Assembly (NCBI RefSeq): GCF_900148505.1
Contig: NZ_FRXO01000015.1
Coordinates: forward strand, 1 to 64,000
Length of the DNA stretch: 64,000 nt
Direction of reading: 5' to 3'
From: Pseudoxanthobacter soli DSM 19599
Lineage (GTDB): Bacteria; Pseudomonadota; Alphaproteobacteria; Rhizobiales; Segnochrobactraceae
The translations under genes were made by a program, and so were the position numbers. The notes under the pieces were generated by a model that was given only the letters and a program-made list of their open reading frames with translations, ran no database searches and was not told where the DNA came from. Of the stretch, positions 39,487 to 58,312 are shown one piece after another (within the stretch, counting starts at the first letter, position 1; every line of letters begins with the position of its first letter).

Positions 39487-40112
39487 AACGCGAGGAACAT
39501 CGCGATGCCGCAGTCGATCAGGGGATCGGCCTCGCTTGCCGGCCAGGGCGGCAGCGCGAGCATGCCCGAGAGCCTGGAATCTTCCGAGATGAGGGCGAGA
39601 AGCTGGAGCGCGGCGAGGTCGGGATCGGGGATGCGCAGACGGCCCGCGCGGTCGAGCGCGGCCAGATAGGTCGCGATCTTGCGGACCGAGCCGCCGGGGC
39701 CCTCCTCATAGAACACCTCCGCCAGACGGGGGAACCGCGGCGCGACCGGAATCAGGACGCGGAAGAGGTCGAGCCCCTCGCGCTGGGTGAAGATGCGCCG
39801 ATAGTTGTCCGCCACCCTCCGCAACTCGGCCTCGACCGACGCGCTCTGCGGGTCCGGCACGTAGAGTCTGGCATTGACCGCCCGGCATTCGACGCGGATC
39901 AGCTCTTCGAACAGCGCGGCCTTGCCGGGGAAATGCGCGTAGAGCGTCGCCTTGGAGATCGCGGCGACGCGCGCGATCTCCTCCATCGTGGCGCCGTCGT
40001 ACCCCGACTTCAGGAACACCGCGCGGGCGGCCTTCAGCGACTCCCGGGCTTTCGGCGGCAGGACGGTCGCGTCTTTCCCGGCTGCAACGGTTTGCGTCTC
40101 GTTTTCTGACAT
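39474..40112 (-). CDS. TetR-family repressor, probable regulator of the adjacent RND pump
   Basis: This 212-residue protein has an N-terminal helix-turn-helix ([48 protein letters not shown]) and a helical ligand domain similar to the AcrR C-terminal family (TetR_C_11-like). It is divergent from a tripartite efflux operon. Two identical 16-bp operators stand in the 120-base shared region, one 17 bases before its own start, so it very probably represses both itself and the pump. The inducer is unknown. Confidence 0.92.
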
Positions 40113-40128
40113 GGCTGCGATTTATCTG

Positions 40129-40144
40129 AACTGAACGGTTTAGT
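40129..40144. promoter_or_regulatory. TetR operator copy 1
   Basis: AACTGAACGGTTTAGT is an imperfect palindrome (ACTGAAC/GTTTAGT arms). It is identical to the copy at 40186-40201 and lies next to the TetR gene start, fitting autorepression. Confidence 0.8.
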
Positions 40145-40185
40145 CCATATTGACTTCCGCATTCGCCGGGCCTACCCGATAATCA

Positions 40186-40201
40186 AACTGAACGGTTTAG
40201 T
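40186..40201. promoter_or_regulatory. TetR operator copy 2
   Basis: This is the same 16 bases as at 40129-40144, with a start-to-start distance of 57 bases, and ends 31 bases before the likely pump start codon. A GATAAT hexamer (40178-40183) directly precedes it, so a bound repressor would overlap the pump promoter. Confidence 0.8.
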
Positions 40202-40232
40202 TCAGAGCGGATTCCTGCGGGTGCCATCGATC

Positions 40233-41768: not shown

Positions 41769-41852
41769 CAGGCCCCCCTGACGGGACCACTGACCGGGCT
41801 GCGACGCCCCCTCGCAACGCCCCCGTGCCGAAGCCGCAAGGAGAGACGGCAG

Positions 41853-42974
41853 ATGAAGAAGCGGATGATCCTCATGCTGGCCGTCGTCGCCCTGATCTTC
41901 GGGGCGTTCTACGGGTTCCAGACCTTCAAGGCGACCATGATCAAGCAGGCGCTCGCGTCGCTGCGCGACCCGCCGCAGACCGTCGCCACGGCCGTTGCCA
42001 CCCTGACGCCGTGGCAGTCCAGCATCAAGGCGGTCGGCAGCGTCCGCGCCGAAGCGGGCGCCGATCTGGCGCTCGAAAGCTCGGGCACCGTCGCTGAGAT
42101 CAATTTCAAGTCCGGCGACGAGGTCGCCGAGGGTCAGGTGCTGCTCAAGCTGCGCGACGACCAGGAGGTCGCCAGCCTCGACGCCCTGAAGGCGACGGCC
42201 GACGTCAGCTCCCTCATCCTCAACCGCGACCGCGAGCAGTTGAAGATCCACGCCGTGAGCCAGGCGACCATCGACAGCGACACCGCCAATCTCAAGAAGG
42301 CGCTGGCAGAGGTCGCCGAACAGCAGGCGGTGGTCGACAAGAAGACGCTGAAGGCCCCCTTCGCCGGCCGCCTCGGCATCCGTTCCGTGGATCTCGGCCA
42401 GTATGTGAGCGCGGGCACGACCATCGTGACGCTGCAGTCGCTCAACCCAATTTTCGTCGATTTCTACCTGCCGCAGCAGGCCCTCGCCGAGGTGCGGACG
42501 GGACAGACGGTGAAGGCCACGGTGGACACCTATCCCGGCCAGGCATTCGAGGGCACGGTGACGGCGATCAGCCCCAAGGTCGACGTCGCCTCGCGCAACG
42601 TGCAGGTGCGCGCCGAGTTCAAGAACGACGACCATCGCCTCACCCCCGGCATGTTCGCGACCGTCGAGATCTCCGTCGGCACGCCGGACCAACTGGTGAC
42701 GCTGCCGCAGACCGCGGTGACCGCCAATCCCTACGGCGACATCGTCTTCGTGGTGGAGAAGAAGGAAGGATCGGCGACGGGGCTGACCGCGCGGCAGGTG
42801 TTCGTCACCACCGGCGCGACGCGGGGCGACCAGATCGCCATCACCGACGGCATCAAGGCGGGCGAGCAGATCGTCGTCGCCGGCCAGATGAAACTGCACA
42901 ACGGATCGCAGGTCAGCGTGAACAACGCCGTGCTGCCGACGGACGATCCCTCCCCCACCATCGTCGATCGCTGA
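41853..42974 (+). CDS. RND efflux periplasmic adaptor (HlyD/MexA-like)
   Basis: The 373-residue adaptor has a single N-terminal membrane anchor (MILMLAVVALIFGAFYGF), then lipoyl and barrel segments (DLALESSGTVAEINFKSGDEVAEGQVLLKL), a short alpha-helical hairpin, KKTLKAPFAGRLGIRSVDLGQYVSAGTTIVTLQSLNPIFVDFYLPQQAL, and membrane-proximal beta strands. There is no lipobox, so it is anchored by its uncleaved helix as in MexH/MexJ-like adaptors. It connects the inner-membrane pump to the outer channel. It is 84 bases after the channel gene and 11 before the pump gene. Confidence 0.94.
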   Translation: MKKRMILMLAVVALIFGAFYGFQTFKATMIKQALASLRDPPQTVATAVATLTPWQSSIKAVGSVRAEAGADLALESSGTVAEINFKSGDEVAEGQVLLKLRDDQEVASLDALKATADVSSLILNRDREQLKIHAVSQATIDSDTANLKKALAEVAEQQAVVDKKTLKAPFAGRLGIRSVDLGQYVSAGTTIVTLQSLNPIFVDFYLPQQALAEVRTGQTVKATVDTYPGQAFEGTVTAISPKVDVASRNVQVRAEFKNDDHRLTPGMFATVEISVGTPDQLVTLPQTAVTANPYGDIVFVVEKKEGSATGLTARQVFVTTGATRGDQIAITDGIKAGEQIVVAGQMKLHNGSQVSVNNAVLPTDDPSPTIVDR

Positions 42975-42985
42975 GCGAGGCGCGC

Positions 42986-45900
42986 ATGTCGTCCTTCACG
43001 GATATCTTCATCCGCCGGCCGGTGCTGGCGATCGTGGTCAGCCTGATGATCCTGGTGCTCGGCCTGCGCGCGATGGCCTCCATGCCCATCCTGCAATATC
43101 CGCGCACGCAGAACGCCATCGTGACCGTCACCACCACCTATCCCGGTGCCGATCCGGACGTGGTGGCGGGCTTCATCACCACGCCGCTGGAGAATGCCAT
43201 CGCCCAGGCGAACGGCATCGACTACATGACCTCCACCAGCACCACCGGCACCAGCACGATCACGGTCAACCTGCGGCTCAATTACGATACCGGCAAGGCC
43301 CTCACCGAGATCAACACCAAGGTCAATTCGGTGCTGAACCAGCTTCCGTCCGGCACGCAGCAGCCGGTGCTGACGGTGAAGGTGGGGCAGACCATCGATT
43401 CGATGTATATCGGCTTCCGCAGCACGGCCATCGCGGCGAACCAGATCACCGATTACCTGATCCGCGTGGTGCAGCCGAAGCTGCAGGCGGTGCAGGGCGT
43501 GCAGACGGCCGAACTGCTCGGCAGCAAGACCTTCGCCATGCGTGCGTGGCTCGACCCGATCCGCCTCGCGGCCTATGGCGTGACCGCCTCCGAGGTCTCC
43601 ACCGCGCTCGGCAACAACGACTATATCGCCAGCCTCGGCAACACCAAGGGCCAGATGGTGCAGGTGAACCTCACCGCCTCCACCAGCCTGCACAATGTCG
43701 AGGAGTTCAAGAACCTCATCGTCAAGGAAGAGAACGGCGCCATCGTGCGCCTGAAGGACGTCGCCAACGTCACGCTCGGCGCCGACGACTACGATTCCGC
43801 CACGATGTTCAACGGCCATGAGTCGGTCTATATCGGCATCCAGATCGCCCCGACCGCCAATCTGCTCGACGTCATCAAGGGTGTGCGGGCGGTGCTGCCG
43901 GAGATCGAGTCGCAGCTGCCGACCGGTCTCACCATGGGCGTCATCTACGATTCCTCGGAGTTCGTGAACTCCTCCATCGACGAGGTGATCCACACGCTGG
44001 TGGAGGCGCTGGCCATCGTCACCCTGGTGGTATTCGCCTTCCTCGGCTCGTGGCGGTCGGTGCTCATTCCCGTCATCGCCATTCCGCTGTCGCTGATCGG
44101 CACCTTCCTGATGATGCTGGCGTTCGGCTTCAGCATCAATCTGCTCACGCTGCTCGCCCTGGTGCTGGCCATCGGCCTCGTGGTCGACGACGCCATCATC
44201 GTGGTGGAAAGCGTCAACCACCACATGGAAGAGGGCATGACGGCGCGCGAGGCCGCCTTCGCCTCGGCGCGGCAGCTCGCCAATCCCATCATCGCCATGA
44301 CGGTGGTGCTGATCGCCGTCTATGTGCCGATCGGCTTCCAAGGCGGGCTCACCGGCGCGCTGTTCACGGAATTTGCCTTCACGCTCGTCGGCGCGGTGAC
44401 CATCTCCGCCGTGATCGCGCTCACCCTGACGCCGATGATGTCGGCCAACATGCTGAAGCCTGTGGACCACGCCGGCGGCGATCTCGAATCCCGCATGGTG
44501 CTGGCGGTGGACCGGGTGATGGGCGCCGTCACCGGCGCCTATTCCCGCTCGCTCAGGGGCGCGCTCAACTACAAGCCCGTCACCGTGGTGTTCGCCGCGC
44601 TGGTGCTGTGCAGCGTCTACTGGTTCTACACCTCGGCCCAGAGCGAACTCGCCCCGGAGGAGGATCAGGGCATCATCCTCGCCCAGAGCATTTCGGCCCC
44701 GAACGCCACGCTGCAGCAGAAGCTGCTCTACGACGCGCAGACCTACGACATCTTCAAGAAGCACCCGGAGACCGAGACGGTGTTCCAGGTGGAAAGCACC
44801 GGCACCAGCATCGCCGGCTGGGTGATGAAGCCCTGGGACGAACGCAAGGCGACGACCAAGACCCTCCAGCCCATGATCCAGCAGGAGCTGAACCAGGTCG
44901 CCGGCCAGAAGATCGTCGCCTTCCAGCAATCGCCCCTGCCGGGTTCGAACGGCCTGCCGATGCAGATCGTCATCGGCACCTCGGACGGATTCGACAAGCT
45001 CAACGAGGTGGCGACCAAGTTCCTGCAGGAGGCGCTGAACACCGGCCTGTTCATCTTCCTCAACAACGACCTGAAGATAGACCAGCCGCAGGCTTCCATC
45101 GTCATCGACCGCGAGAAGACCTCGCTCCTCGGCCTTTCCATGAGCGACGTGGGCGGCGCACTGTCCTCGATGCTCGGCGGTGGCTATGTGAACTATTTCA
45201 GCCTGGACGGGCGATCCTACAAGGTCATCCCGCAGGCGAAGCAGGAAGCGCGGCTCAATACCGATCAGGTCCTGAACTATTACATGCGCCTGAAGGACGG
45301 GACCATGGTCCCCCTGTCCACGGTGGCGCGCGTGGAGACCAAGACCGTCCCGGAATCCCTCAACCACTTCCAACAGGTGAACGCCGCGACCATCGCCGGT
45401 GTCGTCGCTCCCGGCGTCACCACGGGCGATGCCATCGCCGCGCTGCAGGATCTGGCCCGCCGGACTCTGCCCGTCGGCTACACCCTCGATTTCGGCGGCG
45501 CCTCGCGGCAATACGTGCAGGAAAGCGGCGGCTTCATCACCACCTTCGCCTTCGCGGTGATCGTGATCTTCCTGTCCCTCGCCGCCCTGTTCAACAGCTT
45601 CCGCGATCCGGTGGTGATCCTGCTGTCGGTGCCGATGTCGCTTGCCGGCGCGCTTCTGTTCATCAGCCTCGGCATTGGCGGCGCCAGCATCAACATCTAC
45701 ACCCAGGTGGGGCTCACCACGCTGATGGGGCTGATCAGCAAGCACGGCATCCTGATGCTGGAGGTCGCCAACGAGCTGCAACTCGCCGGCAAGTCGAAGC
45801 GGGAGGCCATCATCGAGGCGGCGACGCTGCGGCTGCGGCCGATCCTGATGACGACGGCGGCCATGGTGCTCGGCGTCGTTCCGCTGATCGTCGCCACCGG

Positions 45901-46066
45901 CGCCGGCGCGGCCTCGCGCTACAATCTCGGCCTCGTGATCGCCACCGGCCTCGCCATCGGCACCCTGTTCACGCTCTACGTGGTGCCGACGGCCTATGTG
46001 CTGATGGGCCAGACGCACCGCCGCGAGGTGGAAGAAGGCGAGCCGGTGCCCGTGCCGGCCGAATAG
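42986..46066 (+). CDS. RND multidrug efflux pump, inner-membrane transporter (HAE1 family)
   Basis: This 1026-residue proton-driven pump has twelve predicted helices in the 1+5+1+5 RND arrangement and two large periplasmic loops. Family marks are the start FTDIFIRRPVLAIVVSLMILVLGLRAMASMPILQYPRTQNAIVTVTTTYPGADPDVV, the proton-relay pair in IGLVVDDAIIVVESVNHHMEEGMTAREAA, and GLISKHGILMLEVANE in the second half. Overall it resembles MexK/VexF-like HAE1 pumps for lipophilic drugs, detergents or biocides. Substrates cannot be predicted reliably. A hairpin about 80 bases after the stop may end the operon. Confidence 0.96.
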   Translation: MSSFTDIFIRRPVLAIVVSLMILVLGLRAMASMPILQYPRTQNAIVTVTTTYPGADPDVVAGFITTPLENAIAQANGIDYMTSTSTTGTSTITVNLRLNYDTGKALTEINTKVNSVLNQLPSGTQQPVLTVKVGQTIDSMYIGFRSTAIAANQITDYLIRVVQPKLQAVQGVQTAELLGSKTFAMRAWLDPIRLAAYGVTASEVSTALGNNDYIASLGNTKGQMVQVNLTASTSLHNVEEFKNLIVKEENGAIVRLKDVANVTLGADDYDSATMFNGHESVYIGIQIAPTANLLDVIKGVRAVLPEIESQLPTGLTMGVIYDSSEFVNSSIDEVIHTLVEALAIVTLVVFAFLGSWRSVLIPVIAIPLSLIGTFLMMLAFGFSINLLTLLALVLAIGLVVDDAIIVVESVNHHMEEGMTAREAAFASARQLANPIIAMTVVLIAVYVPIGFQGGLTGALFTEFAFTLVGAVTISAVIALTLTPMMSANMLKPVDHAGGDLESRMVLAVDRVMGAVTGAYSRSLRGALNYKPVTVVFAALVLCSVYWFYTSAQSELAPEEDQGIILAQSISAPNATLQQKLLYDAQTYDIFKKHPETETVFQVESTGTSIAGWVMKPWDERKATTKTLQPMIQQELNQVAGQKIVAFQQSPLPGSNGLPMQIVIGTSDGFDKLNEVATKFLQEALNTGLFIFLNNDLKIDQPQASIVIDREKTSLLGLSMSDVGGALSSMLGGGYVNYFSLDGRSYKVIPQAKQEARLNTDQVLNYYMRLKDGTMVPLSTVARVETKTVPESLNHFQQVNAATIAGVVAPGVTTGDAIAALQDLARRTLPVGYTLDFGGASRQYVQESGGFITTFAFAVIVIFLSLAALFNSFRDPVVILLSVPMSLAGALLFISLGIGGASINIYTQVGLTTLMGLISKHGILMLEVANELQLAGKSKREAIIEAATLRLRPILMTTAAMVLGVVPLIVATGAGAASRYNLGLVIATGLAIGTLFTLYVVPTAYVLMGQTHRREVEEGEPVPVPAE

Positions 46067-47635: not shown

Positions 47636-48565
47636 CTAGAATTCGCCGATGGCGCGGGCGGCCAGGATGGCCGCGGAGGCGCGGTTCTCAACGCCGAGCT
47701 TGGCGTAGATCTGTTCGAGGTGCTTGTTCACCGTGCGCGGGCTGAGGCCGAGGATGTCGCCGATATCGCGGTTGGACTTGCCGCGCGCGATCCAGACCAG
47801 CACCTCCGCCTCCCGCGCGGTCAGGGCATAACGCTGCTTCAGCACGGCCTCCTGACCGGCGGTGTCGTCGCTCGTCAGGCGGAACAGGAATTCGTCCTCG
47901 CCGGTCTTGCCGAGGAGAGACAATTCCAGCCGGCGCCCGTCCGATGCGGCGAGCGTGACCGGCGCAGGCGGGCCGCCAGATCCATTTCCCCGCAGCCAGT
48001 CCCGAAGGCTTTCCGGCAGGAGAAGCGTGCCGTCCGTCGCGGCGGCGAGGCTGACGCCGAGCAGGCGCAGCGCCTGGGGCGTCGACCACAGCACGCGGCC
48101 GTCGCGGTCGGCGGCGAGCAGGTAGCGGCCGGCGGTGTCGAGCGCCGCCCGCGCGCTGGCAGCCGAGCGGGCATTGGCGAGGTGGACGCGGATGCGCGCG
48201 AACAGCTCGTCGAGATTGATCGGCTTCGTCACATAGTCGACGCCGCCCGCCTCCAGCCCCTGCACGATGTGCTCGGTCTCCGTCAGCCCGGTCATGAAGA
48301 TGATCGGGACGTGGGCGAGCGGGCCGGCCTTCAGCCGCCGGCAGGTCTCGAAGCCGTCCATGCCGGGCATGAGCGCGTCCATCAGCACCACGTCGGGCGT
48401 GATGCGCTCCACCAGGGCCAGCGCCTGCTCGCCCGCGGTCGCGACCAGCACCGTCACCCCGGAAAGCTCCAGGGCGTCGGTCAGCAGCTTCAGGGTCTCG
48501 GGCGAATCGTCGACGACAAGAACGATGTCGCGCGCGCCCGGCAGAACCGCCCGCACATCAGCCAT
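47636..48565 (-). CDS. LuxR/NarL-type response regulator of the urea two-component system
   Basis: This 309-residue protein has three parts: an N-terminal receiver (DIVLVVDDSPETLKLL..., phospho-Asp in VVLMDALMPG near residue 62, Lys in VDYVTKPINLDE); a middle PAS-like segment (residues about 140-230, GRYLLAADRDGRVLWSTPQALRLLG); and a C-terminal LuxR helix-turn-helix (YALTAREAEVLVWIARGKSNRDIGDILGLSPRTVNKHLEQIYAKLGVENRASAA). It overlaps the stop of the kinase gene by eight bases (ATGGCTGA), so the two are translationally coupled partners. A NarL-type dyad in front of urtA is a candidate target. Confidence 0.93.
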   Translation of the reverse strand: MADVRAVLPGARDIVLVVDDSPETLKLLTDALELSGVTVLVATAGEQALALVERITPDVVLMDALMPGMDGFETCRRLKAGPLAHVPIIFMTGLTETEHIVQGLEAGGVDYVTKPINLDELFARIRVHLANARSAASARAALDTAGRYLLAADRDGRVLWSTPQALRLLGVSLAAATDGTLLLPESLRDWLRGNGSGGPPAPVTLAASDGRRLELSLLGKTGEDEFLFRLTSDDTAGQEAVLKQRYALTAREAEVLVWIARGKSNRDIGDILGLSPRTVNKHLEQIYAKLGVENRASAAILAARAIGEF

Positions 48566-51500
48566 GGTCCGCCAGCCCCTCCAGCATCCGTGTCATGCGG
48601 TCGAAATCGAAGGCGTTCATGTGGCGCCGGGTCTCGTCGATGAAGGCGGGATCGACGCCGTCGCCTTCGAGGGCGGCGAGCTTGGCTTCGATGCCGCGAA
48701 CATAGCCGATGCGCGCGAGGCCAAGAAGCTCCGCCACGTCGCCCGCGCGCGGGCCGGGCGTCCCCGGGGCGGCGGGAGCGGGCGGCGGCGCCCCCGCGAC
48801 CGATCCCTCCTTCGCCTCGTCCCTAGTCGGCCCGGTCTCGTCCGCATCGATCCAGACGAGGTCGAGCAGCACCTGGATGCGTTCGAGCAATTGGCGCAGG
48901 TCGAACGGCTTCGGCAGCGTCTCGTTGTGCACCGCATGCTCGCCGGCATCCGGCGGCGTGTCGCCGATATTGGCCGAGAGCATCACGATCGGGGCGGTGT
49001 GGCCGCGCCGGCGAAGGTGGCGGGCGAGTTCCCACCCCGTCATGCCGGGCATCGAGATGTCGAGCAGGAACAGGTCGGGCCGGATTTCGGAAACGAGGTC
49101 GAGGCAGGCCGGCCCGTCGACGGCGTCGAGCACCAGGAAGCCGATCGGCTCCAGCGCCTCGTGGATCAGGTCGCGGTGATCGTCGTCGTCGTCGACCACG
49201 AGCACGGTGCGCCGGGGACCCTCGTAGTCGCGAATCTGCTTGGCCGGGGCCGGGGCCGGCTTCGGGCGCGCCACCGCCGACAGCATCAGCCGCGCCTGGA
49301 ACCGGCTGCCTTCGCCGACCGTGCTGGAGACGGAGATGTCGCCGCCCATCAGCTCGGTCAGAAGCTTGGTGATGGTGAGCCCGAGGCCGAGGCCGGCGGC
49401 CGCCCGCACGGTGGCGTCGTGCCCGCGCTCGAACGGCTCGAACACGCGCTCGATCTCGTCGGGCGGAATGCCCGGCCCGGAATCCTCCACCGCGATGGTG
49501 GCGACCTGGTTGCGGTAGCCGACCTTGAGCGCGACGTGGCCGCGCTCGGTGAACTTGATCGCGTTCGACAGGAGATTGATAAGGATCTGCCGCAGCCGCT
49601 TCTCGTCGGTGACGACCACCTCCGGCAATCTCGCCGCCTCGAAGCGGAAATCGAGCCCCTTGGCGCGCGCCTGCAGGCGGAACATGTCGACGAGTTGTTC
49701 GAGGAACTCGCCGATGCGCACCTCGTTGCGCTGGATCTGGAGCCGGCCGGCCTCGATCTTGGAGATGTCCAGAAGGCCGTCGATCAGGCCGGAGAGGTGT
49801 TCCGCGTTGCGGCGGATCGATTGCAGGCCGCCGATCCGCCGGGGCGGAAAGGCCGGGTCGCGCTCCAGGATCTGGGCGTAGCCGAGCACGGCGTTCAGCG
49901 GCGTGCGCAGTTCGTGGCTGAGCCCGACGACGTAGCGGCTCTTGGCGAGGTTCGCCGCCTCGGCGATCTCCTTCGCCTTCTGCAGCGCGGCGTCGGTGCG
50001 GCGGTGGGCGGCGATCTCGCGCAGCAGCAAGGTGTTCTGGCGCATGGATTCCTCCTGCGCCACCCGCCGGCTTTCGTTCGCCAGCACGAAGAACCAGCCG
50101 GAGATGCCGGCGATGATCATCAGGATGAAGAACGCCGCCCAGAGCGTGCGCCCGACGATGTCGCCGTGCACCTCGCCGGTCGAGGTCACCACCGTGTAGA
50201 TGATGACGAGCAGGCCGCCGATGACGAGCGCAAACAGCGCCATCACCCAGGCATATTGGCCGATGCGCGAATTGAACCGGGCGACGACGTGCTCCGGCAG
50301 CACCGTCGAGAGCGCGCTGATCGCCTGCGCCTGGAACCGGGCCTTCGGCTTGCAGAGATCGTGGCAGCGCGCGTCGAGCGAGCAGCACAGCGAGCAGATC
50401 GGCCCGGAATAGGCGGGGCAGAACGCCATGTCCTCCGGCTCGAAATGGTGCTCGCAGACGCTGCAGCGGATCTCGGTGCGGTTCTGCCAGTGGGCGCGCG
50501 GCTTGCGGGCGAGATAATAGCGCCCGCCGGTCGCCCAGGCGATGGCCGGCGTGGCGACGAGGGCCACGACGAGCGCGATGAACGGCGCGAGCGCCTGCGC
50601 CACCGGCCCGAACACCCCGAACAGCGCGACGAGCGCGACGAGGGCCGCGAGCCCCATGCCGCCGACGCCGACCGGGTTCACGTCGTAGAGGTGGGCGCGC
50701 TTGAACTCGATTCCCGGCGGGCTGAGGCCGAGCGGCTTGTTGATGACGAGATCGGCCACCATCACGCCGAGCCAGGCGACGGCGGCGATGGAGAACACGC
50801 CGAGGGTGCGCTCCAGCGCGCGGTAGATGCCGAGTTCCATCAGCATCAGCGCGATGGCGACATTGAACACCAGCCACACCACCCGGCCCGGATGGCTGTG
50901 GGTGAGCCGCGAGAAGAAGTTCGACCACGCCAACGAGCCGGCATAGGCGTTCATCACGTTGATCTTGAGCTGCGACACCACCACGAAACCGGCGGTGACG
51001 GCGAGCACCACGCCCGATGAGGAAAACACGTAGCCGAACGCGACGTGGAACATCTGCGCCGGCTCGGCGGCATGGTCCTCGGGCACGCCCGCGCGCAGCG
51101 CCAGATAGGCGAGGAAGGAGCCGGCCAGCAGCTTCGGCGCGCCGAGGATGATCCAGCCCGGGCCGGCGAACAGCAGCGCCGCCGACCAGCCCCTGCCCGT
51201 GCGCGGCGCTTCCCGGTCGTATTCGCGCGGCGGCAGGAAGCGCAGGAAGTCGACCTGTTCGCCGATCTGGGGAATGAGCGCCAGGATCACCGCGGCGGCC
51301 GCCCCGAAATGCAGCAGGTCGAAGGTCGCCGATGGCGTCGCGGTCGGATGGCCGGGCGCGCCGCCGAAGGCCGTCCAGGCCTGGATTGCGGGCCAGTCGT
51401 GGATGGCGATGAACACGAACGGCAGGATGTTGAGCACGATCCAGACCGGCTGGGTCCAGAGCTGGAAGCGGCTGATGCCGGTGATGCCGTGGGTGACGAG

Positions 51501-51986
51501 CGGAATGACCGCCAGCGACGAGATGATGTAGCCGAGCCAGAGCGGAATGCCGAAGCACAGCTCCAGCGCCGACGACATGATCGACGCCTCGATGGCGAAC
51601 AGCATGAAGGTGAACGTCGCATAGATCAGCGACGTGATGGTGGAGCCGATATAGCCGAAGCCCGCGCCGCGCGTCAGGAGATCGATGTCGACGCCGTAGC
51701 GGGCGGCATAGCGCGCGATGGGGATGCCGGTCAAAAGGATCACGACGCTGACGGCGAGGATCGCGGCCACCGCATTGGTGAAGCCGTAGCTCAGCGTGAT
51801 GGCGCCGCCGATCGCCTCCAGCGCCAGGAACGAGATCGCGCCGATCGCCGTCTGCGCCACGCGCCCGGCCGACCAGCGCCGCGCCCGCTTGGCGGTGAAG
51901 CGAAGGGCGTAGTCCTCCAGCGTCTGGTTGGCGACCCAGCGGTTGTATTCCCGCCGGACCGGGAGGATGCGCTGACGCCCCGACAT
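48558..51986 (-). CDS. Hybrid histidine kinase fused to an NCS1 permease-like sensor domain
   Basis: This protein has about 1142 residues. Order: an NCS1 (cytosine/allantoin/hydantoin permease-like) domain of roughly ten or more helices (about residues 35-490; WVANQTLEDYALRFTAKRARRWSAGRVAQTAIGAISFLALEAIGGAITLSYGFTNA); a cysteine-rich stretch (about 515-550; CSVCEHHF, CPAYSGPICSLCC, CHDLC); two more helices (about 575-640); HisKA with phospho-His in VGLSHELRTPLNAVLGYAQ (about 690); HATPase (DSGPGIPP, GLGLGLTITKLL); receiver (VVDDDDDHRDL, LFLLDISMPG); and a C-terminal helical segment. ATG 51986 follows GGAGGGG. It is divergent from urtABCDE and coupled to a response regulator, so urea or nucleobase-derived nitrogen is the likely signal. 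Whether the permease part still transports is unknown. Confidence 0.9.
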   Translation of the reverse strand: MSGRQRILPVRREYNRWVANQTLEDYALRFTAKRARRWSAGRVAQTAIGAISFLALEAIGGAITLSYGFTNAVAAILAVSVVILLTGIPIARYAARYGVDIDLLTRGAGFGYIGSTITSLIYATFTFMLFAIEASIMSSALELCFGIPLWLGYIISSLAVIPLVTHGITGISRFQLWTQPVWIVLNILPFVFIAIHDWPAIQAWTAFGGAPGHPTATPSATFDLLHFGAAAAVILALIPQIGEQVDFLRFLPPREYDREAPRTGRGWSAALLFAGPGWIILGAPKLLAGSFLAYLALRAGVPEDHAAEPAQMFHVAFGYVFSSSGVVLAVTAGFVVVSQLKINVMNAYAGSLAWSNFFSRLTHSHPGRVVWLVFNVAIALMLMELGIYRALERTLGVFSIAAVAWLGVMVADLVINKPLGLSPPGIEFKRAHLYDVNPVGVGGMGLAALVALVALFGVFGPVAQALAPFIALVVALVATPAIAWATGGRYYLARKPRAHWQNRTEIRCSVCEHHFEPEDMAFCPAYSGPICSLCCSLDARCHDLCKPKARFQAQAISALSTVLPEHVVARFNSRIGQYAWVMALFALVIGGLLVIIYTVVTSTGEVHGDIVGRTLWAAFFILMIIAGISGWFFVLANESRRVAQEESMRQNTLLLREIAAHRRTDAALQKAKEIAEAANLAKSRYVVGLSHELRTPLNAVLGYAQILERDPAFPPRRIGGLQSIRRNAEHLSGLIDGLLDISKIEAGRLQIQRNEVRIGEFLEQLVDMFRLQARAKGLDFRFEAARLPEVVVTDEKRLRQILINLLSNAIKFTERGHVALKVGYRNQVATIAVEDSGPGIPPDEIERVFEPFERGHDATVRAAAGLGLGLTITKLLTELMGGDISVSSTVGEGSRFQARLMLSAVARPKPAPAPAKQIRDYEGPRRTVLVVDDDDDHRDLIHEALEPIGFLVLDAVDGPACLDLVSEIRPDLFLLDISMPGMTGWELARHLRRRGHTAPIVMLSANIGDTPPDAGEHAVHNETLPKPFDLRQLLERIQVLLDLVWIDADETGPTRDEAKEGSVAGAPPPAPAAPGTPGPRAGDVAELLGLARIGYVRGIEAKLAALEGDGVDPAFIDETRRHMNAFDFDRMTRMLEGLADHG

Positions 51987-52340
51987 CGCTTGCTTTCGCC
52001 CCTCCCCCGACCGGTCCGGCGCCGGCATCGCGGGCGAACGCCCGGCCTCGCGCACCCGCGAGGATGCGTGCTTTGGCATCGATCCGCACGCTTGTCCACG
52101 GGATCGCTCGCCTCATGCGATGCAAACCGGATGCCGTTTCGCAGCCCGCCCGCTCCATCGCCCCGGCAGCGCTGCGGGACGACCAAATTGCGCGGCGTTC
52201 CGCGGCCCTCCGGCACCTCCGCCGCCCCCTACGTCATTCGACGTATTTGCTGCAGCGCGAGATGCGCCGACAGTCGGGGCTGGCTGGAAAGGCATCGTGC
52301 CGAAAAATAAGCCTCATCACCGCAAACAGGGGAACACTCC
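51987..52340. promoter_or_regulatory. Divergent control region between the sensor kinase and urtA
   Basis: 354 bases without a gene, carrying both promoters. The clearest element is the palindrome at 52230-52245. The rest is GC-rich with no other strong dyad seen. Confidence 0.6.
52230..52245. promoter_or_regulatory. Palindrome TACGTC-N4-GACGTA, candidate response-regulator operator
   Basis: Perfect 6-bp arms (TACGTC at 52230-52235, GACGTA at 52240-52245) around ATTC. The TAC...GTA ends are typical of NarL/LuxR-type regulator sites. It lies 95 bases upstream of the urtA start, in the region shared with the two-component genes. Binding is inferred. Confidence 0.6.
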
Positions 52341-53720
52341 ATGACGTCGACGACCCTTGACGCATCCTGGAACCGCCCGGAGGAGCCCGCCGCTCCCGCC
52401 GGCCGGCTTCCGCGCTTCCTCCGCTCCGCCCGCCGCGCCTTCGGCGCGCTCGCCATGGTTGGTGCCGTGGCCCTCGCCGGTGCCCAGCATGCCAAGGCCG
52501 CCGACGACACCATCAAGGTCGGCGTGCTGCACTCGCTGTCCGGCACCATGGCGATCTCGGAGACCACGCTGAAGGACACCGTCCTGATGCTGATCGACGA
52601 GCAGAACAAGAAGGGCGGCCTGCTCGGCAAGAAGCTCGAGGCGGTGGTCGTCGATCCCGCCTCCAACTGGCCGCTGTTCGCCGAGAAGGCCCGCGAGCTC
52701 CTGACCAAGGACAAGGTCGCGGCGGTGTTCGGCTGCTGGACGTCGGTGTCGCGCAAGTCCGTGCTGCCGGTGTTCGAGGAGCTGAACGGCATCCTGTTCT
52801 ACCCGGTGCAGTACGAAGGCGAGGAATCCTCGAAGAACATCTTCTACACCGGCGCCGCCCCGAACCAGCAGGCGATCCCGGCCGTCGACTATCTGATGGA
52901 GAACGAGGGCGTCCAGCGCTGGGTGCTTGAAGGCACCGACTACGTCTATCCGCGCACGACCAACAAGATCCTCGAGGCCTACCTGAAGTCCAAGGGCGTG
53001 AAGGCCGAGGACATCTCGATCAACTACACGCCGTTCGGCTTCTCCGACTGGCAGACCCGCGTCGCCGAGATCAAGAAGTTCGGCTCCGAGGGCAAGAAGA
53101 CCGCCGTGGTCTCCACCATCAACGGCGACGCCAACGTGCCGTTCTACAAGGAACTCGCCAACCAGGGCATCAAGGCCACCGACATCCCGGTCGTCGCCTT
53201 CTCGGTCGGCGAAGAGGAACTCGCCGGCATCGACACCAAGCCGCTCGTCGGCCACCTCGCCGCGTGGAACTACTTCGAGTCCGTCGACACGCCGGAGAAC
53301 GCCGAGTTCATCAAGAAGTGGAAAGAGTTCATCAAGAACGACAAGCGCGTGACCAACGACCCGATGGAAGCCACCTATATCGGCTTCAACATGTGGGTTA
53401 AGGCGGTCGAGAAGGCCGGCACCACCGATCCGAGCAAGGTCATCCCGGACATGATCGGCGTCTCGGTCCCGAACCTCTCGGGCGGCTACTCGGCGATGAT
53501 GCCGAACCACCACATCACCAAGCCCGTGCTGATCGGCGAGATCCAGGACAACGGCCAGTTCGAGATCGTGTCCGAGACCCCCGGCCTGATCGTCGCGCAG
53601 GAATGGTCCCCGTACCTCGAGGGTTCCCGCGACCTGATCGCCGACTGGCGCTCGCCGATGTCGTGCGGAAACTTCAACGTCAAGACCGGCAAGTGCGGCG
53701 GCGCCGGCGCAGCGAACTGA
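52341..53720 (+). CDS. urtA: Urea ABC transporter, substrate-binding protein
   Basis: This 459-residue periplasmic protein has a long signal peptide (FLRSARRAFGALAMVGAVALAGAQHAKA, cleavage near residue 53) followed by DDTIKVGVLHSLSGTMAISETTLKDTVLMLIDEQNKKGGLLGKKLEAVVVDPASNWPLFAEKARELL. AAVFGCWTSVSRKSVLPVFEELNGILFYPVQYEGEESSKNIFYTGAAPNQQAIPAVDYL is diagnostic of UrtA/AmiC-like urea binders. It captures urea for import by UrtBC/DE. GGGGAAC precedes the ATG. It heads urtABCDE and is divergent from the two-component system. Confidence 0.97.
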   Translation: MTSTTLDASWNRPEEPAAPAGRLPRFLRSARRAFGALAMVGAVALAGAQHAKAADDTIKVGVLHSLSGTMAISETTLKDTVLMLIDEQNKKGGLLGKKLEAVVVDPASNWPLFAEKARELLTKDKVAAVFGCWTSVSRKSVLPVFEELNGILFYPVQYEGEESSKNIFYTGAAPNQQAIPAVDYLMENEGVQRWVLEGTDYVYPRTTNKILEAYLKSKGVKAEDISINYTPFGFSDWQTRVAEIKKFGSEGKKTAVVSTINGDANVPFYKELANQGIKATDIPVVAFSVGEEELAGIDTKPLVGHLAAWNYFESVDTPENAEFIKKWKEFIKNDKRVTNDPMEATYIGFNMWVKAVEKAGTTDPSKVIPDMIGVSVPNLSGGYSAMMPNHHITKPVLIGEIQDNGQFEIVSETPGLIVAQEWSPYLEGSRDLIADWRSPMSCGNFNVKTGKCGGAGAAN

Positions 53721-53734
53721 CGCGCGGAGCACAC

Positions 53735-53804
53735 GGCCGGGCGTGATCGCGCCCGGCCCGATCCTCTCTCCTGACCAACCGGCCGGCGCCCTGCGGCGCC
53801 GGCC
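53735..53804 (+). repeat. Two strong hairpins between urtA and urtB
   Basis: GGCCGGGCG/CGCCCGGCC (53735-53743 with 53750-53758, 6-base loop) is followed by GGCCGGCGCC/GGCGCCGGCC (53781-53790 with 53795-53804, 4-base loop). Both stems are perfect and there is no T-tract. They probably stabilise the urtA message or limit read-through, giving binding protein in excess over channel subunits. Confidence 0.65.
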
Positions 53805-53868
53805 TCCCCTCCCGGTGCATCGCCGAACGATCCGGCCGGTGCATCCTCCGCAAGACGGGGTGCCGCTC

Positions 53869-55518
53869 GTGATCCGCCAGTTCGTTGCCCGCAATCCGCT
53901 CCGCCGTTTCGCCGGCCTGATGGCGTGCCTGCTGACCTGTCTCGTCGTGGCGGCCGGCCTCGGCCTGTCGGGCACACCCGCCCGCGCCGACGCGGTCGAC
54001 GACGCGCTGGCGCTGATCGCCAGCCCGAAATTTCCCGACATCGAGAAAGGCGTGACCGAGCTCGCCGCCAGCGGCGCGCCGGAAGCCGCCACGGTGATCG
54101 AGGCGCTCGGCGACGGCCGTCTGATGGTCGATGCCGGCAGCAAGACCCTGTTCGTCAAGGCCCCGGACGGCGCGCTGACCGACGCGCGCACTGGCGCGGC
54201 GGTGGCGGACGCCCCCTCCGGCCTCAAGGCCGTGCGCGTCAACAACCGCGTGCGCCGCGCCGTCGATGCCGCGGTCGGCATGCTGACGCTGATGTCGCCC
54301 GATCCCGCCAAGCGCCTCGCCGCCGCCGACGCCGTTTTCAAGTCGCGCGACGAAGCCGCGTTGCCGGCGATCGAGGCCGCGCTCGCCAAGGAGACCGACC
54401 CCGGCATCCGCACCGTGCTCGAACAGGCCCATGCGGTGCTGATCCTCAACGATCCGCAGGCGAACGCCGAAGCCCGCAGCGCCGCCGTCGCCAGCATCGT
54501 CGCCCGCGGCGACCAGGATGCGCTTTCGATCCTCGACGCGGCCAAGGCCGGCGCTAGCCCGGCCGACGCCGCCGCGATCGATGCCGGCATCCGCGCGATC
54601 CAGAACAAGCAGCAGATCGCGGCGGTGTTCCAGAACGTCTGGTACGGCCTGTCGCTCGGCTCGGTGCTGCTGCTCGCCGCCATCGGGCTCGCCATCACCT
54701 TCGGCGTGATGGGCATCATCAACATGGCCCACGGCGAGATGGTGATGCTCGGCGCCTACACCACCTTCGTGGTTCAGGAGGTCTGCCGCGCCTATGCGCC
54801 GGACATGATCGGCCTGTCGCTGCCGGTCGCCATCCCGCTCGCCTTCGTGGTTACCGGCGCGGTGGGCGTGCTGATCGAGCGCACCGTGATCCGCCACCTC
54901 TACGGCCGGCCGCTCGAAACCCTGCTCGCCACCTGGGGCATCAGCCTGATCCTGCAGCAGGCGGTGCGCTCGCTGTTCGGCCCGACCAACCGTCAGGTCG
55001 ATGCGCCGAGCTACATGTCGGGCGCGTTCGAGGTTGCCGGCGTCACCATCACCTACGGCCGCATGTGGATCGTGGTGTTCGCCATCGCGGTGTTCTTCGG
55101 GTTGCTGACACTGCTGAAGTCGACCTCGTTCGGCCTGAAGATGCGCGCCGTCACCCAGAACCGGAAGATGGCGGCCTCGATGGGCATCCGCACCCCGATG
55201 GTCGACACCATGGCGTTCGCGATGGGCTCCGGCATCGCCGGCATCGCCGGGGTGGCGCTCTCCCAGATCGACAACGTCTCGCCCAATCTCGGCCAGGGCT
55301 ACATCGTCGACAGCTTCATGGTCGTGGTGTTCGGCGGCGTCGGCAATCTCTGGGGCACCCTCGTCAGCGCGCTGACCCTCGGCGTCGCCAACAAGCTACT
55401 GGAGCCCTATGCCGGCGCCGTGCTCGGCAAGATCCTGATCCTGGTGCTCCTGATCCTGTTCATCCAGAAGAAGCCGCGCGGCCTGTTCGCGCTGAAGGGA
55501 AGGGCTATCGAAGCATGA
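53869..55518 (+). CDS. urtB: Urea ABC transporter, permease UrtB
   Basis: This 549-residue LivH-type permease has an extra N-terminal periplasmic domain typical of UrtB. A signal-like segment (FAGLMACLLTCLVVAAGLGLSG) leads a helical HEAT-like region (ADAVDDALALIASPKFPDIEKGVTELAASG... SPDPAKRLAAADAVFKSRDE). Then come about eight helices with GVMGIINMAHGEMVMLGAYTTFVVQE and the cytoplasmic EAA-like segment. No ATG precedes the signal segment at a good distance; GTG 53869 is the likely start. The stop overlaps the urtC start (ATGA). Confidence 0.94.
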   Translation: MIRQFVARNPLRRFAGLMACLLTCLVVAAGLGLSGTPARADAVDDALALIASPKFPDIEKGVTELAASGAPEAATVIEALGDGRLMVDAGSKTLFVKAPDGALTDARTGAAVADAPSGLKAVRVNNRVRRAVDAAVGMLTLMSPDPAKRLAAADAVFKSRDEAALPAIEAALAKETDPGIRTVLEQAHAVLILNDPQANAEARSAAVASIVARGDQDALSILDAAKAGASPADAAAIDAGIRAIQNKQQIAAVFQNVWYGLSLGSVLLLAAIGLAITFGVMGIINMAHGEMVMLGAYTTFVVQEVCRAYAPDMIGLSLPVAIPLAFVVTGAVGVLIERTVIRHLYGRPLETLLATWGISLILQQAVRSLFGPTNRQVDAPSYMSGAFEVAGVTITYGRMWIVVFAIAVFFGLLTLLKSTSFGLKMRAVTQNRKMAASMGIRTPMVDTMAFAMGSGIAGIAGVALSQIDNVSPNLGQGYIVDSFMVVVFGGVGNLWGTLVSALTLGVANKLLEPYAGAVLGKILILVLLILFIQKKPRGLFALKGRAIEA

Positions 55519-56696
55519 GCGCGCCATCCAGCACGCCGACCGCCAGTCCCGCCCGCTTCGGCTTCCTCGATACCAAGGGCCGCATCTTCCTCATCGTGCT
55601 CGTGGCGGCGGGGATCTTCGTTCCCTTCGCGAACCTGGTGTTCCCGCCGGATTCCGCCTTCCACGTCCCGACCTACGCCGTGTCGCTCATGGGCAAGTAC
55701 CTGAGCTACGCCCTGCTCGCGCTCGCGCTCGATCTGGTGTGGGGCTATTGCGGCATCCTCTCGCTCGGCCACGGCGCGTTCTTCGCCCTCGGCGGCTACG
55801 CGATGGGCATGTACCTGATGCGGCAGATCGGCTCGCGCGGCGTCTACGGCAACCCGGTGCTGCCGGACTTCATGGTGTTCCTGAACTGGACCGAGCTGCC
55901 CTGGTACTGGTACGGCTTCGACAGCTTCGCCTTCGCGATGCTGATGGTGGTCGTCGCGCCCGGCATCCTCGCCTTCGTGTTCGGCTGGCTGACGTTCCGT
56001 TCCCGCGTCAACGGCGTCTATCTCTCCATCATCACCCAGGCGATGACGTTCGCGCTCCTGCTCGCGTTCTTCCGCAACGACATGGGCTTCGGTGGCAACA
56101 ACGGCCTGACCGACTTCAAGGACATCCTCGGCTTCGACATCCGCGCCGAGGGCGTCCGCGTGGCGCTGTTCGTCGCCACTCTGGTCGCGCTGGCGCTCGG
56201 CTATCTCATCTCCCGCGCGCTGACGCTCTCCACCTACGGCAAGGTGCTCGTGGCGGTGCGCGACGCGGAATCCCGCACCCGCTTCCTCGGCTACCGCGTC
56301 GAGCACTACAAGCTCGTCGCCTGGACGGTGTCGGCGATGATGGCCGGCGTCGCCGGAGCGCTCTACGTCACCCAGGTCGGCATCATCAACCCGTCGGAAT
56401 TCTCCCCGGCGAACTCCATCGAGGCCGTGATCTGGGTCGCGGTCGGCGGGCGCGGCACCCTCGTCGGCGCGGCGCTCGGGGCGGTGGTCGTCAACTTCGC
56501 CAAGACGTGGCTCACCGGCGCGCTGCCCGAAGTGTGGCTGTTCGCCCTCGGCCTCCTGTTCGTGGTCGTCACGCTCTATCTGCCGAAGGGCATTCTGGGC
56601 GTCGTCAACCAGTGGAAGAACCGCCGCCGGGCGCCGCCTGCGTCCGCCGCCCCCGAACCCGTCGCCTTCACCGCGACCGAAAAGCCGGCGGAGTGA
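55515..56696 (+). CDS. urtC: Urea ABC transporter, permease UrtC
   Basis: This 393-residue LivM-type permease has about ten helices. Segments: YLSYALLALALDLVWGYCGILSLGHGAFFALGGYAMGMYLMRQIG, GYRVEHYKLVAWTVSAMMAGVAGALYVTQVGIINPSEFSPANSIEAVIWVAVGGRGTLVGAALGAVVVN. It forms the membrane channel with UrtB. It is translationally coupled to urtB (ATGA) and ends five bases before the urtD start. Confidence 0.96.
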   Translation: MSAPSSTPTASPARFGFLDTKGRIFLIVLVAAGIFVPFANLVFPPDSAFHVPTYAVSLMGKYLSYALLALALDLVWGYCGILSLGHGAFFALGGYAMGMYLMRQIGSRGVYGNPVLPDFMVFLNWTELPWYWYGFDSFAFAMLMVVVAPGILAFVFGWLTFRSRVNGVYLSIITQAMTFALLLAFFRNDMGFGGNNGLTDFKDILGFDIRAEGVRVALFVATLVALALGYLISRALTLSTYGKVLVAVRDAESRTRFLGYRVEHYKLVAWTVSAMMAGVAGALYVTQVGIINPSEFSPANSIEAVIWVAVGGRGTLVGAALGAVVVNFAKTWLTGALPEVWLFALGLLFVVVTLYLPKGILGVVNQWKNRRRAPPASAAPEPVAFTATEKPAE

Positions 56697-56701
56697 TCCC
56701 G

Positions 56702-57517
56702 ATGACCGTGAGCGCCGACCTCCCCGAAACGTCCGTGGCCCCGCCGCCGCCCGTCCACACCCACGGCACGCCGCTGACCAACACCATCCTCTATCTCGAT
56801 GGCGTGCACGTCTCGTTCGACGGCTTCCGGGCACTGAACCAGCTCTCGCTCGCCATCGCGCCCGGCGAGATGCGGGCGATCATCGGCCCGAACGGCGCCG
56901 GCAAGACCACGATGATGGATTGCATCACCGGCAAGACCAAGCCGGACGGCGGCGTGGTGATGTTCGACGGCGCCGTCGACCTCACCCAGCTCGACGAGGC
57001 GGCCATCGCGGAACTCGGCATCGGCCGCAAGTTCCAGAAGCCGACGGTGTTCGAGACGCTGACGGTGGAGGACAATGTCCGCCTCGCGCTCAAGGGGCCG
57101 CGCAGTCCGTGGTCGGCCCTGTTCGGCGAGCGCAACCGCATCGCCCGCGAGCGCATCACCGAGGTGCTCGACATCGCCCGCATGACCGAGCATCGCGACC
57201 GCCTCGCCGCCGACCTGTCCCACGGGCAGAAGCAGTGGCTGGAGATCGCCATGCTGCTCGCCCAGGACCCGAAGCTCCTGCTGGTCGACGAGCCGGTGGC
57301 GGGCATGACCGATTCCGAGACGATGGAAACGGCCAAGCTCCTGAAGAAGATCTGCGCCCAGGGCCACGCCGTGGTGGTGGTCGAGCACGACATGCTGTTC
57401 GTGCGCGAACTCGACTGCAAGGTCACGGTGCTGCACGAGGGCTCGACGCTGGCCGAGGGCTCCATCGACGCGGTCTCGGTCAACGAGCGCGTCGTGGAGG
57501 TCTATCTCGGTCGCTGA
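56702..57517 (+). CDS. urtD: Urea ABC transporter, ATPase UrtD
   Basis: The 271-residue LivG-type ATPase has a 30-residue proline-rich N-terminal extension, then LYLDGVHVSFDGFRALNQLSLAI. Walker A is IIGPNGAGKTTMMDCITG, the Q-loop is RKFQKPTVFETLTVEDN, the signature is LSHGQKQWLEIAMLL and Walker B is LLLVDEPVAGMTDSE. LSHGQKQWLEI is characteristic of UrtD. It powers urea import with UrtE. Confidence 0.96.
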   Translation: MTVSADLPETSVAPPPPVHTHGTPLTNTILYLDGVHVSFDGFRALNQLSLAIAPGEMRAIIGPNGAGKTTMMDCITGKTKPDGGVVMFDGAVDLTQLDEAAIAELGIGRKFQKPTVFETLTVEDNVRLALKGPRSPWSALFGERNRIARERITEVLDIARMTEHRDRLAADLSHGQKQWLEIAMLLAQDPKLLLVDEPVAGMTDSETMETAKLLKKICAQGHAVVVVEHDMLFVRELDCKVTVLHEGSTLAEGSIDAVSVNERVVEVYLGR

Positions 57518-57600: not shown

Positions 57601-57616
57601 TTCCATGGAGAGGCCC

Positions 57617-58312
57617 ATGCTGAGCGTCGAATCCATCGATCTCTATTACGGTGCCGCCCAGGCGCTGCGCGATGTCTCCATCACCGCCGAGACCGGCAAG
57701 GTGACGACGGTGCTCGGCCGCAACGGCGTCGGCAAGACCTCGCTGCTGCGCGCCATCACCGGCCGCGAGCCCATTTCCCGCGGCGCCATCCGGTTCGAGG
57801 ACCGCGAGATCTCGAAGCTGAAATCCTACGACCGCGCGCGCGGCGGCATCGCCTTCGTGCCGCAGGGCCGCGAGATCTTCCCGCTGCTGTCGGTCAAGGA
57901 GAACCTGGAGACCGGCTTCGCCCCGCTGAAGCGCTCCGAGCGCTACATCCCCGAGACCATCTACGACCTGTTCCCGGTGCTGAAGGACATGCTGCACCGG
58001 CGCGGCGGCGACCTTTCCGGCGGCCAGCAGCAGCAGCTCGCCATCGCCCGCGCCCTCATCACCCGCCCCCGCCTGCTCGTGCTCGACGAGCCGACCGAGG
58101 GCATCCAGCCGTCCATCATCAAGGATATCGGCCGCGCCATCGATTTCCTGCGCAGCCAGGGCACCATGGCGATCCTGCTGGTGGAGCAATATTTCGATTT
58201 CGCCCGCGACCTGTGCGACACATGGGCCGTGATGGAACGCGGTGCCATCGTCATGTCCGGCACCCGCGCCGAGATGAACGAGGACGAGGTGCTGCAGCGG
58301 CTCGCCGTGTGA
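57617..58312 (+). CDS. urtE: Urea ABC transporter, ATPase UrtE
   Basis: The 231-residue LivF-type ATPase starts MLSVESIDLYYGAAQALRDVSITAETGKVTTVLGRNGVGKTSLLRAITG (Walker A). IAFVPQGREIFPLLSVKENLETGF, signature LSGGQQQQLAIARALI and Walker B LLVLDEPTEGIQPSII follow. GGAGAGG lies just before ATG 57617; an ATG at 57605 is an alternative. It is the last gene of the urt operon, before a strong terminator. Confidence 0.96.
   Translation: MLSVESIDLYYGAAQALRDVSITAETGKVTTVLGRNGVGKTSLLRAITGREPISRGAIRFEDREISKLKSYDRARGGIAFVPQGREIFPLLSVKENLETGFAPLKRSERYIPETIYDLFPVLKDMLHRRGGDLSGGQQQQLAIARALITRPRLLVLDEPTEGIQPSIIKDIGRAIDFLRSQGTMAILLVEQYFDFARDLCDTWAVMERGAIVMSGTRAEMNEDEVLQRLAV

Follow-up and report, generated by a model that had tools for sequence, protein, structure and literature searches.

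A predicted NCS1-fold permease fused to a hybrid histidine kinase opposite urtABCDE: a candidate urea/short-amide transceptor in Pseudoxanthobacter soli

In a 64,000-nucleotide stretch of the Pseudoxanthobacter soli DSM 19599 genome (contig NZ_FRXO01000015.1, positions 1 to 64,000; hereafter the window), the gene for a 1142-residue hybrid histidine kinase (48558-51986, minus strand) is followed by that of a LuxR-type response regulator and lies opposite the urea importer operon urtABCDE. We propose that the two proteins form a two-component system in which the kinase is a transceptor for urea or short amides and the regulator acts at urtA, a reading to which we assign a probability of roughly 70%. 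It is favored because of the conserved gene order around members of this sensor family, the neighbors of kinase-free relatives of its permease domain, and the linkage of a palindrome before urtA to the presence of the sensor. A sequence-only reading of the window had described one protein of about 1142 residues joining a nucleobase-permease-like domain to HisKA, HATPase and receiver domains, and the open reading frame, its Pfam matches, and the fold and profile comparisons of its N-terminal half bear out this description. The eight-cysteine module at residues 508-545, two further helices, the overlap between the kinase and regulator genes, and the palindrome did not feature in that reading.

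The kinase was characterized from its open reading frame, Pfam matches, an AlphaFold2 model, Foldseek, and hhalign. A longer start at 52079 is possible; the one at 51986 was preferred because conservation in the family begins there and a purine-rich GGGGGAGGGG lies shortly upstream. Pfam placed HisKA at residues 682-747 and HATPase_c at 793-902 (together residues 682-902; 49281-49943, minus strand), followed by Response_reg at 928-1038 (48873-49205, minus strand), and gave no significant match in the first 660 residues. The phospho-acceptor His691 as well as Asn808, Asp835, and Gly865 are conserved in all 140 aligned kinase rows, and the receiver residues Asp976 and Lys1026 are found in 138 of them. 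The two remaining rows have gaps at the receiver positions and are probably the shorter variants of loci L154 and L155. Judging from these residues, the kinase is predicted to be catalytically intact. Stringent motif patterns recovered fewer sequences (H box 117/139, N box 97/139, receiver 107/139), and the alignment was used instead. The regulator (309 residues; 47636-48565, minus strand) has a start that overlaps the kinase stop (ATGGCTGA), Pfam matches to a receiver (REC) and a LuxR-type helix-turn-helix (HTH) domain, and a phospho-acceptor, Asp63, that is present in 117 of 117 aligned regulators. HisKA, HATPase_c, receiver, phospho-acceptors, and an adjacent REC-HTH protein are thus all present, as in the class of hybrid HisKA kinases with LuxR-family regulators. 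Two segments of the pair had no Pfam match: about 104 residues C-terminal to the kinase receiver (48561-48872), and about 120 residues between the receiver and HTH of the regulator (127-247), which are perhaps PAS-like. The variants at L154 (7999-10656) and L155 (8063-10747) are sensors of about 890 residues near fmdA/fmdB that lack both the fused receiver and the LuxR regulator; in L155, a separate REC-HisKA-HATPase protein comes next.

The N-terminal domain (residues 22-500; 50487-51923, minus strand) is predicted from modeling, fold search, and profile comparison to adopt the NCS1 rather than the SLC5 fold. The AlphaFold2 model, which covers residues 1-660 and drew on 26 sequences, has a mean predicted local distance difference test (pLDDT) score of 74.1 and a predicted template modeling (pTM) score of 0.76, and the top five Foldseek matches to it are all chains of CodB and Mhp1. 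In VIA comparisons, Z scores were 29.4 for CodB and 24.2-27.1 for Mhp1, with the next listed match, from another LeuT-fold family, at 21.8; SLC5 structures scored lower than those of NCS1. Likewise, hhalign aligned the family profile to NCS1 with a probability of 98.1 (E 1e-13), versus 6.6 (E 0.0055) for SLC5/SSF, and gave E values of 1.4e-10 and 0.013, respectively, under other settings. The sequence-only reading had called the protein an NCS1 version of transporter-type sensors such as CbrA and had named the lack of an NCS1 match as grounds for abandoning the idea; such a match is what both comparisons returned. Pfam alone cannot show this relationship. PF02133 did not match the window protein (E up to 0.1) or the N-termini of 30 family members (E up to 1), nor did it hit the sensor when 21 genomes were searched, and neither single-sequence Pfam/NCBIfam scans nor a profile search of PDB sequences identified the N-terminal half. 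The NCBIfam cytosine permease model PRK11017 was matched by 7 of 30 members, with a best E of 6.6e-7, far short of the 326-bit cut-off of that model. Relatives do pass the PF02133 cut-off of 23.5 bits: a urease-linked permease of Klebsiella, 43% identical to residues 21-538 of the window protein, scored 38.1 bits and was the sole pass among the eight free-standing permeases tested, and the permease of locus L151 scored 36.4 bits.

Of 398 genomes sampled from the phylum, 56 had a profile match to the N-terminal half, a few of these matches being weak, partial, or kinase-free. Gene context was compared at the best 80 of 580 confirmed loci (46 from Rhizobiaceae and 11 unplaced) and at 60 more that were hand-picked for spread among the matches; excluding L151, which has no kinase, leaves 139 kinase loci (80 plus 59). 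Neighbors were counted by tblastn within about 10 kb on each side, with genes called by a crude open-reading-frame score that missed some, and the identities of FmdA, AmiE, and UreC were checked with hidden Markov models on examples. By this measure, 132 of the 139 loci are near urt genes (89), fmdA (34), or ureC without an opposite-strand urtA (9), and they are referred to below as urt-type (U), amide-type (F), and urease-type (R), respectively. In the 89 U loci, a canonical urtA is on the opposite strand. An Urt-like importer accompanies the formamidase gene fmdA in 32 loci, 15 of which also have an aliphatic amidase, and fmdA occurs alone in 2. The regulator lies just downstream of the kinase on the same strand in 137 loci. 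The F-type importer and enzymes correspond to an Urt-like importer with FmdA/AmiE in Bradyrhizobium that was previously inferred to carry an amide (PMC3098086); that report mentions no kinase. The binding proteins of U- and F-type importers are only 38% identical, and the urea model TIGR03407 does not separate them, since the F-type protein of locus L175 also passes it with 537 bits. Among 61 genomes surveyed for co-occurrence, as the sequence-only reading had recommended, the sensor was found in 12 (one a partial match) and UrtA above cut-off in 32; UrtA was present in 11 of the 12 sensor genomes versus 21 of the 49 others (Fisher p 0.003). The sensor is therefore rarely without UrtA, yet urea import needs no sensor.

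Kinase-free members of the family were scarce in the 398 phylum genomes (one, distant), and a set was taken instead from a plasmid collection, where 11 regions were opened from the best 30 rows and one further row; 9 were annotated and 2 were not. Five of these permeases that were compared with the N-terminal half of the window protein are 41-54% identical to it, and they are annotated as allantoin permease, cytosine permease, or hypothetical. Seven of the nine annotated regions are near urease, formamidase, or amidase genes: urease in three (Acinetobacter, and Klebsiella twice at the same locus), fmdA in three (Moraxella, Tsukamurella, and Methylovirgula), and an aliphatic amidase in one (Arthrobacter). 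The Methylovirgula genes are ordered fmdA, sensor, regulator, permease, amidase. These neighbors are the best evidence that the pocket of the sensor fits urea or small amides. Together with the context of 132 of 139 kinase loci, they make urea or a short amide, rather than a purine, the probable ligand. They also indicate that the permease beside urease is a likely urea carrier, including the NCS1 permease that ends the Klebsiella urease operon (L224 6956-8563 and L232 6956-8563), which is annotated as a cytosine permease. Another amide-sensing arrangement may be present at locus L151 (8949-13984), where a distant NCS1 permease that stands free of any kinase has as neighbors a double CN_hydrolase protein, an AmiC-like binding protein, and an AmiR/ANTAR protein.

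When the regions upstream of the kinases were searched for palindromes in common, the result was TACGT-N6-ACGTA, mostly in the form TACGTC-N4-GACGTA. In the window, the palindrome is TACGTCATTCGACGTA (52230-52245, no strand assigned), a predicted response-regulator operator located 95 bp before urtA, and a genome scan found it to be the sole exact TACGTC-N4-GACGTA in the 5.16-Mb assembly. Exact palindromes precede the kinase in 54/90 U, 13/36 F, 0/10 R, and 0/7 other cases, versus a background of 0.0041 per 500 bp in the rest of the loci. When counted per genus label with one mismatch allowed, and with genomes lacking a genus name counted apart, the proportions were 27/35, 19/34, and 0/10 for U, F, and R. 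Before urtA itself, 68 of the 89 U loci carry the exact palindrome and 83 carry it within one mismatch, as compared with 66 of 2800 random 570-bp windows of the loci. The palindrome follows the target rather than the kinase, because 23 of the 24 U loci without a palindrome before the kinase have one before urtA within one mismatch. Among genomes of the same order, it precedes urtA in 10/10 with a urt-type sensor (including the window) versus 0/21 that are urtA-positive and sensor-free (Fisher p 2e-8), and the canonical urtA of genome G037, which has an amide-type sensor, lacks it. We infer from these sequences that the regulator binds the palindrome, and the earlier suggestion that the system controls urea import gains support from both the synteny and this link to urt-type sensors. 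Most U and F regulators have a similar HTH recognition region (RTVNKHLE), and several of the eight R regulators differ there, which would fit the missing palindrome in R loci. The palindrome-free urease-linked sensors are those of L157, L159, L161, L163, L164, L167, L171, L172, L174, and L215; a shared palindrome was sought for the urease-type loci, and none was found.

The pocket was compared with that of CodB, in which Trp108 and Phe204 stack against cytosine, Gln105 contacts it, and the hydroxyls of Thr278 and Thr279 supply part of the Na+ coordination (PMC9379551). CodB and Mhp1 share the predicted fold of the window protein and are carriers without a kinase. A gapped and a profile alignment agree in placing CodB Gln105 opposite Thr126 and Trp108 opposite Leu129; at position 129, 86/90 urt-type sensors have Leu, and 34/34 amide-type and 9/10 urease-type sensors have Phe. 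CodB Phe204 is opposite Leu237 in the gapped alignment and a gap in the profile alignment, so that the register of transmembrane helix 6 (TM6) is uncertain there. For TM8, the ungapped profile register was preferred (Asn275-Ser338, Thr278-Lys341, Asn280-Asn343, Tyr285-Tyr348) to a gapped one that sets Lys341 opposite CodB Asn275. Thr278 and Thr279 align with Lys341 and Ile342 by profiles or with Val344 and Met345 in the gapped register, leaving no hydroxyl in the window protein either way; in amide-type sensors, the loss depends on the register because position 345 is Thr. With neither the Na2 ligands nor the stacking tryptophan of CodB kept, the protein belongs to a divergent branch of the NCS1 fold and was not filed as a nucleobase carrier. 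Arg249 and Tyr348, which match the CodB Arg216-Tyr285 pair, are present in 134 of 134 sensors. Lys341 is equally invariant and is found in 8/9 free-standing permeases, the ninth having Arg. A lysine is reported to fill the Na2 site of CbrA, where transport is proton-driven (PMC13022988), and Lys341, opposite a Na2 ligand, may play a similar role by analogy. In TM1, position 57 is Glu in 133/133 ungapped sensors and Phe in 8/9 free-standing permeases, and position 56 is mostly Leu in sensors and Asp in 8/9 free-standing permeases, making this difference a candidate for the change from carrier to sensor.

Between the permease domain and the kinase core lies an eight-cysteine module, CxxC-x11-C-x7-CxxCC-x5-C-x3-C (residues 508-545; 50352-50465, minus strand), recognized by motif conservation in 139/139 family kinases and partly kept in free-standing permeases. 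It is followed by two further hydrophobic helices (residues 574-660; 50007-50267, minus strand), assigned from the secondary structure of the model, the second of which continues as a coiled coil leading to HisKA. The module could not be assigned to a Pfam family: Prok-RING_1 matched 10 of 26 members with a best E of 0.14 (window 0.61), and a few other matches in one or two members each (lowest E 0.0025) were taken as chance. Nothing was found below 0.35 among PDB sequences or below 0.63 by Foldseek, where the weak rows include RING, FYVE, and PHD folds. Metal binding by the module is only suspected. The linker as a whole showed no significant Pfam family and no STAC domain, although no dedicated STAC profile was run.

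From these elements, we envisage that the NCS1-fold domain, whose clade probably consists of urea/amide permeases and which may have retained transport, would bind extracellular urea; in other lineages, the bound ligand would probably be formamide or a related amide. The resulting conformational change would reach the HisKA/HATPase core by way of the eight-cysteine module and the two helices that follow it, leading to autophosphorylation at His691 and phosphorylation of the regulator at Asp63, a transfer that the fused receiver would tune. The phosphorylated regulator would then bind TACGTC-N4-GACGTA 95 bp before urtA and activate urtABCDE.

Several observations weigh against this proposal. 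Seven of the 139 loci have no urt, fmdA, or ureC genes within about 10 kb on each side, two of the nine annotated kinase-free relatives have no urease, formamidase, or amidase neighbor, and UrtA is common in genomes without the sensor (21/49). The assembly contains four more places that match the palindrome with one mismatch, none of the ten urease-type sensors is preceded by it even at that tolerance, and in F loci it occurs within one mismatch before the importer in only 20/32 and before fmdA in 8/34. In addition, no sigma-70-like promoter was seen at 51900-52400, and the eight-cysteine module is weakly modeled (pLDDT 69.8). Finally, a specificity rule based on residues 345, 129, and 45 (M/L/Q in urt-type versus T/F/N in amide-type sensors) was dropped: other urt-type lineages have A/T at 345 and F/L at 129, and specificity therefore cannot be read from the Met345/Leu129 pattern.

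Of the alternatives, the one that fares best, though still improbable, is that the NCS1 domain has no ligand of its own and instead signals, through contact, what state the ATP-binding cassette (ABC) importer is in, in the manner of flux-sensing kinase-transporter pairs. The opposite strand carries an Urt-type importer in 121 of the 139 loci (89 U and 32 F), as such a role would lead one to see, but seven ureC-linked sensors have no Urt-type binding protein within about 10 kb and two others have fmdA alone, and the side chains of Gln240, Glu243, Gln244, Asn343, and Asn346 are kept in 134/134 sensors. Rather less probable is that the sensed compound is a nucleobase or purine breakdown product and that urea import is induced to meet a need that arises downstream. 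Nucleobase and hydantoin carriers have this fold, databases give some free-standing relatives the names noted above, and an NCS2-type permease gene with a TIGR03173 xanthine permease match above cut-off directly follows urtE (58536-59912, plus strand). However, the relatives are linked to urease, formamidase, and amidase, the stacking Trp108 of CodB is replaced by Leu129, and tblastn with the NCS2 protein found no match in the 80 loci (E up to 1e-20) or in the 60 others (E up to 1e-15), so the NCS2 gene is probably a local neighbor. The sequence-only reading had listed urea together with allantoin, hydantoin, and uracil as possible ligands; the urea-like part of that list agrees with the urt, formamidase, and amidase neighbors, and the other three compounds are disfavored by the same neighbors and by Leu129. 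A response to nitrogen status or ammonia, with the urea genes linked through shared nitrogen control, is slightly less probable again: the linked enzymes yield ammonia and a kinase fused to Amt is known (PMC5764959), but the sensory domain here is NCS1 rather than Amt, the permease relatives are linked to urease and amidase, and the palindrome goes with the sensor. That the N-terminal half is merely a membrane anchor or a decayed permease is very improbable, since for all its lack of a Pfam match TM6 and TM8 are strongly conserved (for example, Q339, K341, N343, N346, Y348, and G350 in 134/134 sensors).

The proposed urea/short-amide transceptor would work like CbrA and CrbS/CrbR with a carrier other than SLC5. 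CbrA of Pseudomonas, an SLC5-STAC histidine-sensing transceptor (PMC13022988, PMC7096432), also fuses a LeuT-fold carrier to a histidine kinase; it has STAC and PAS domains where the window protein has the eight-cysteine module and two helices, and the window protein differs further in its NCS1 fold, fused receiver, LuxR-type partner, and urea/amide genes. In CrbS/CrbR and RpuS/RpuR (PMC5715377, PMC9100948), too, the kinase is fused to a carrier and its partner regulator is of the LuxR family. CrbS has the hybrid architecture as well, and the site of action of CrbR is an inverted repeat upstream of genes for acetate use. These systems differ in having SLC5 and STAC domains and responding to acetate or pyruvate, and the CrbR repeat (ACTU) is another sequence. 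The Amt-fused ammonium sensor kinase of Kuenenia (PMC5764959) likewise combines a nitrogen-nutrient carrier with a histidine kinase and differs in fold and ligand. Among the papers listed by searches of the open-licence PMC literature, none was recognized as describing an NCS1-fused kinase beside urea/amide genes. The family suggests that many proteobacteria may have a dedicated means of sensing urea and small amides, with a likely operator and target named, and it would add NCS1 to SLC5 as a second LeuT-fold lineage turned kinase sensor, which bears on how carriers evolve into receptors.

In a quick tree of 91 of the 153 aligned rows, in which 19 of 88 inner branches had low support, the labels U, F, and R require at least six changes. 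The sensor has therefore moved among urt, amide, and urease systems, yet it has stayed with urea and amides. It also occurs on plasmids: at a threshold of 1e-100, the protein has 515 matching records in the plasmid collection, of which 499 cover 80% or more of its length and 340 are from Klebsiella. On one Klebsiella IncF plasmid (L213, CP024508.1 64008-87331), the sensor-regulator pair lies opposite the genes of an Urt-like importer, which are accompanied by amiF. The importer on Klebsiella plasmids has been named a "urea ABC-transport system" (PMC5506382), but it may rather be an amide importer, since the "UrtA" of L213 is 79.5% identical to the amide-type protein versus 40.8% to the window UrtA. 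A broader picture can be drawn from these data, which we advance tentatively as somewhat more apt to fail in some part than to hold entire: urea/amide transceptors (NCS1 permease, cysteine cluster, hybrid kinase) would form a class that is widespread in proteobacteria and would have been passed among urea import, amide use, and urease systems and onto Klebsiella IncF plasmids, the same clade would include free-standing urea/amide carriers in which a lysine replaces sodium, and the replacement of Asp56/Phe57 by Leu56/Glu57 in TM1 would mark the step from carrier to sensor.

The urt operon lies on the plus strand, opposite to the kinase and regulator as the sequence-only reading had stated, and all five of its products exceed their NCBIfam cut-offs: the urea-binding protein UrtA (52341-53720, TIGR03407), the permeases UrtB (53743-55518, TIGR03409) and UrtC (55515-56696, TIGR03408), and the ATPases UrtD (56702-57517, TIGR03411) and UrtE (57605-58312, TIGR03410). 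The P. soli genome has urease elsewhere, on contig 5. On the other side of the system, positions 39474-46066 encode a TetR-like regulator, outer-membrane-efflux-like and membrane-fusion-like proteins, and an RND-like pump, which by eye from their translations form an ordinary efflux cluster.

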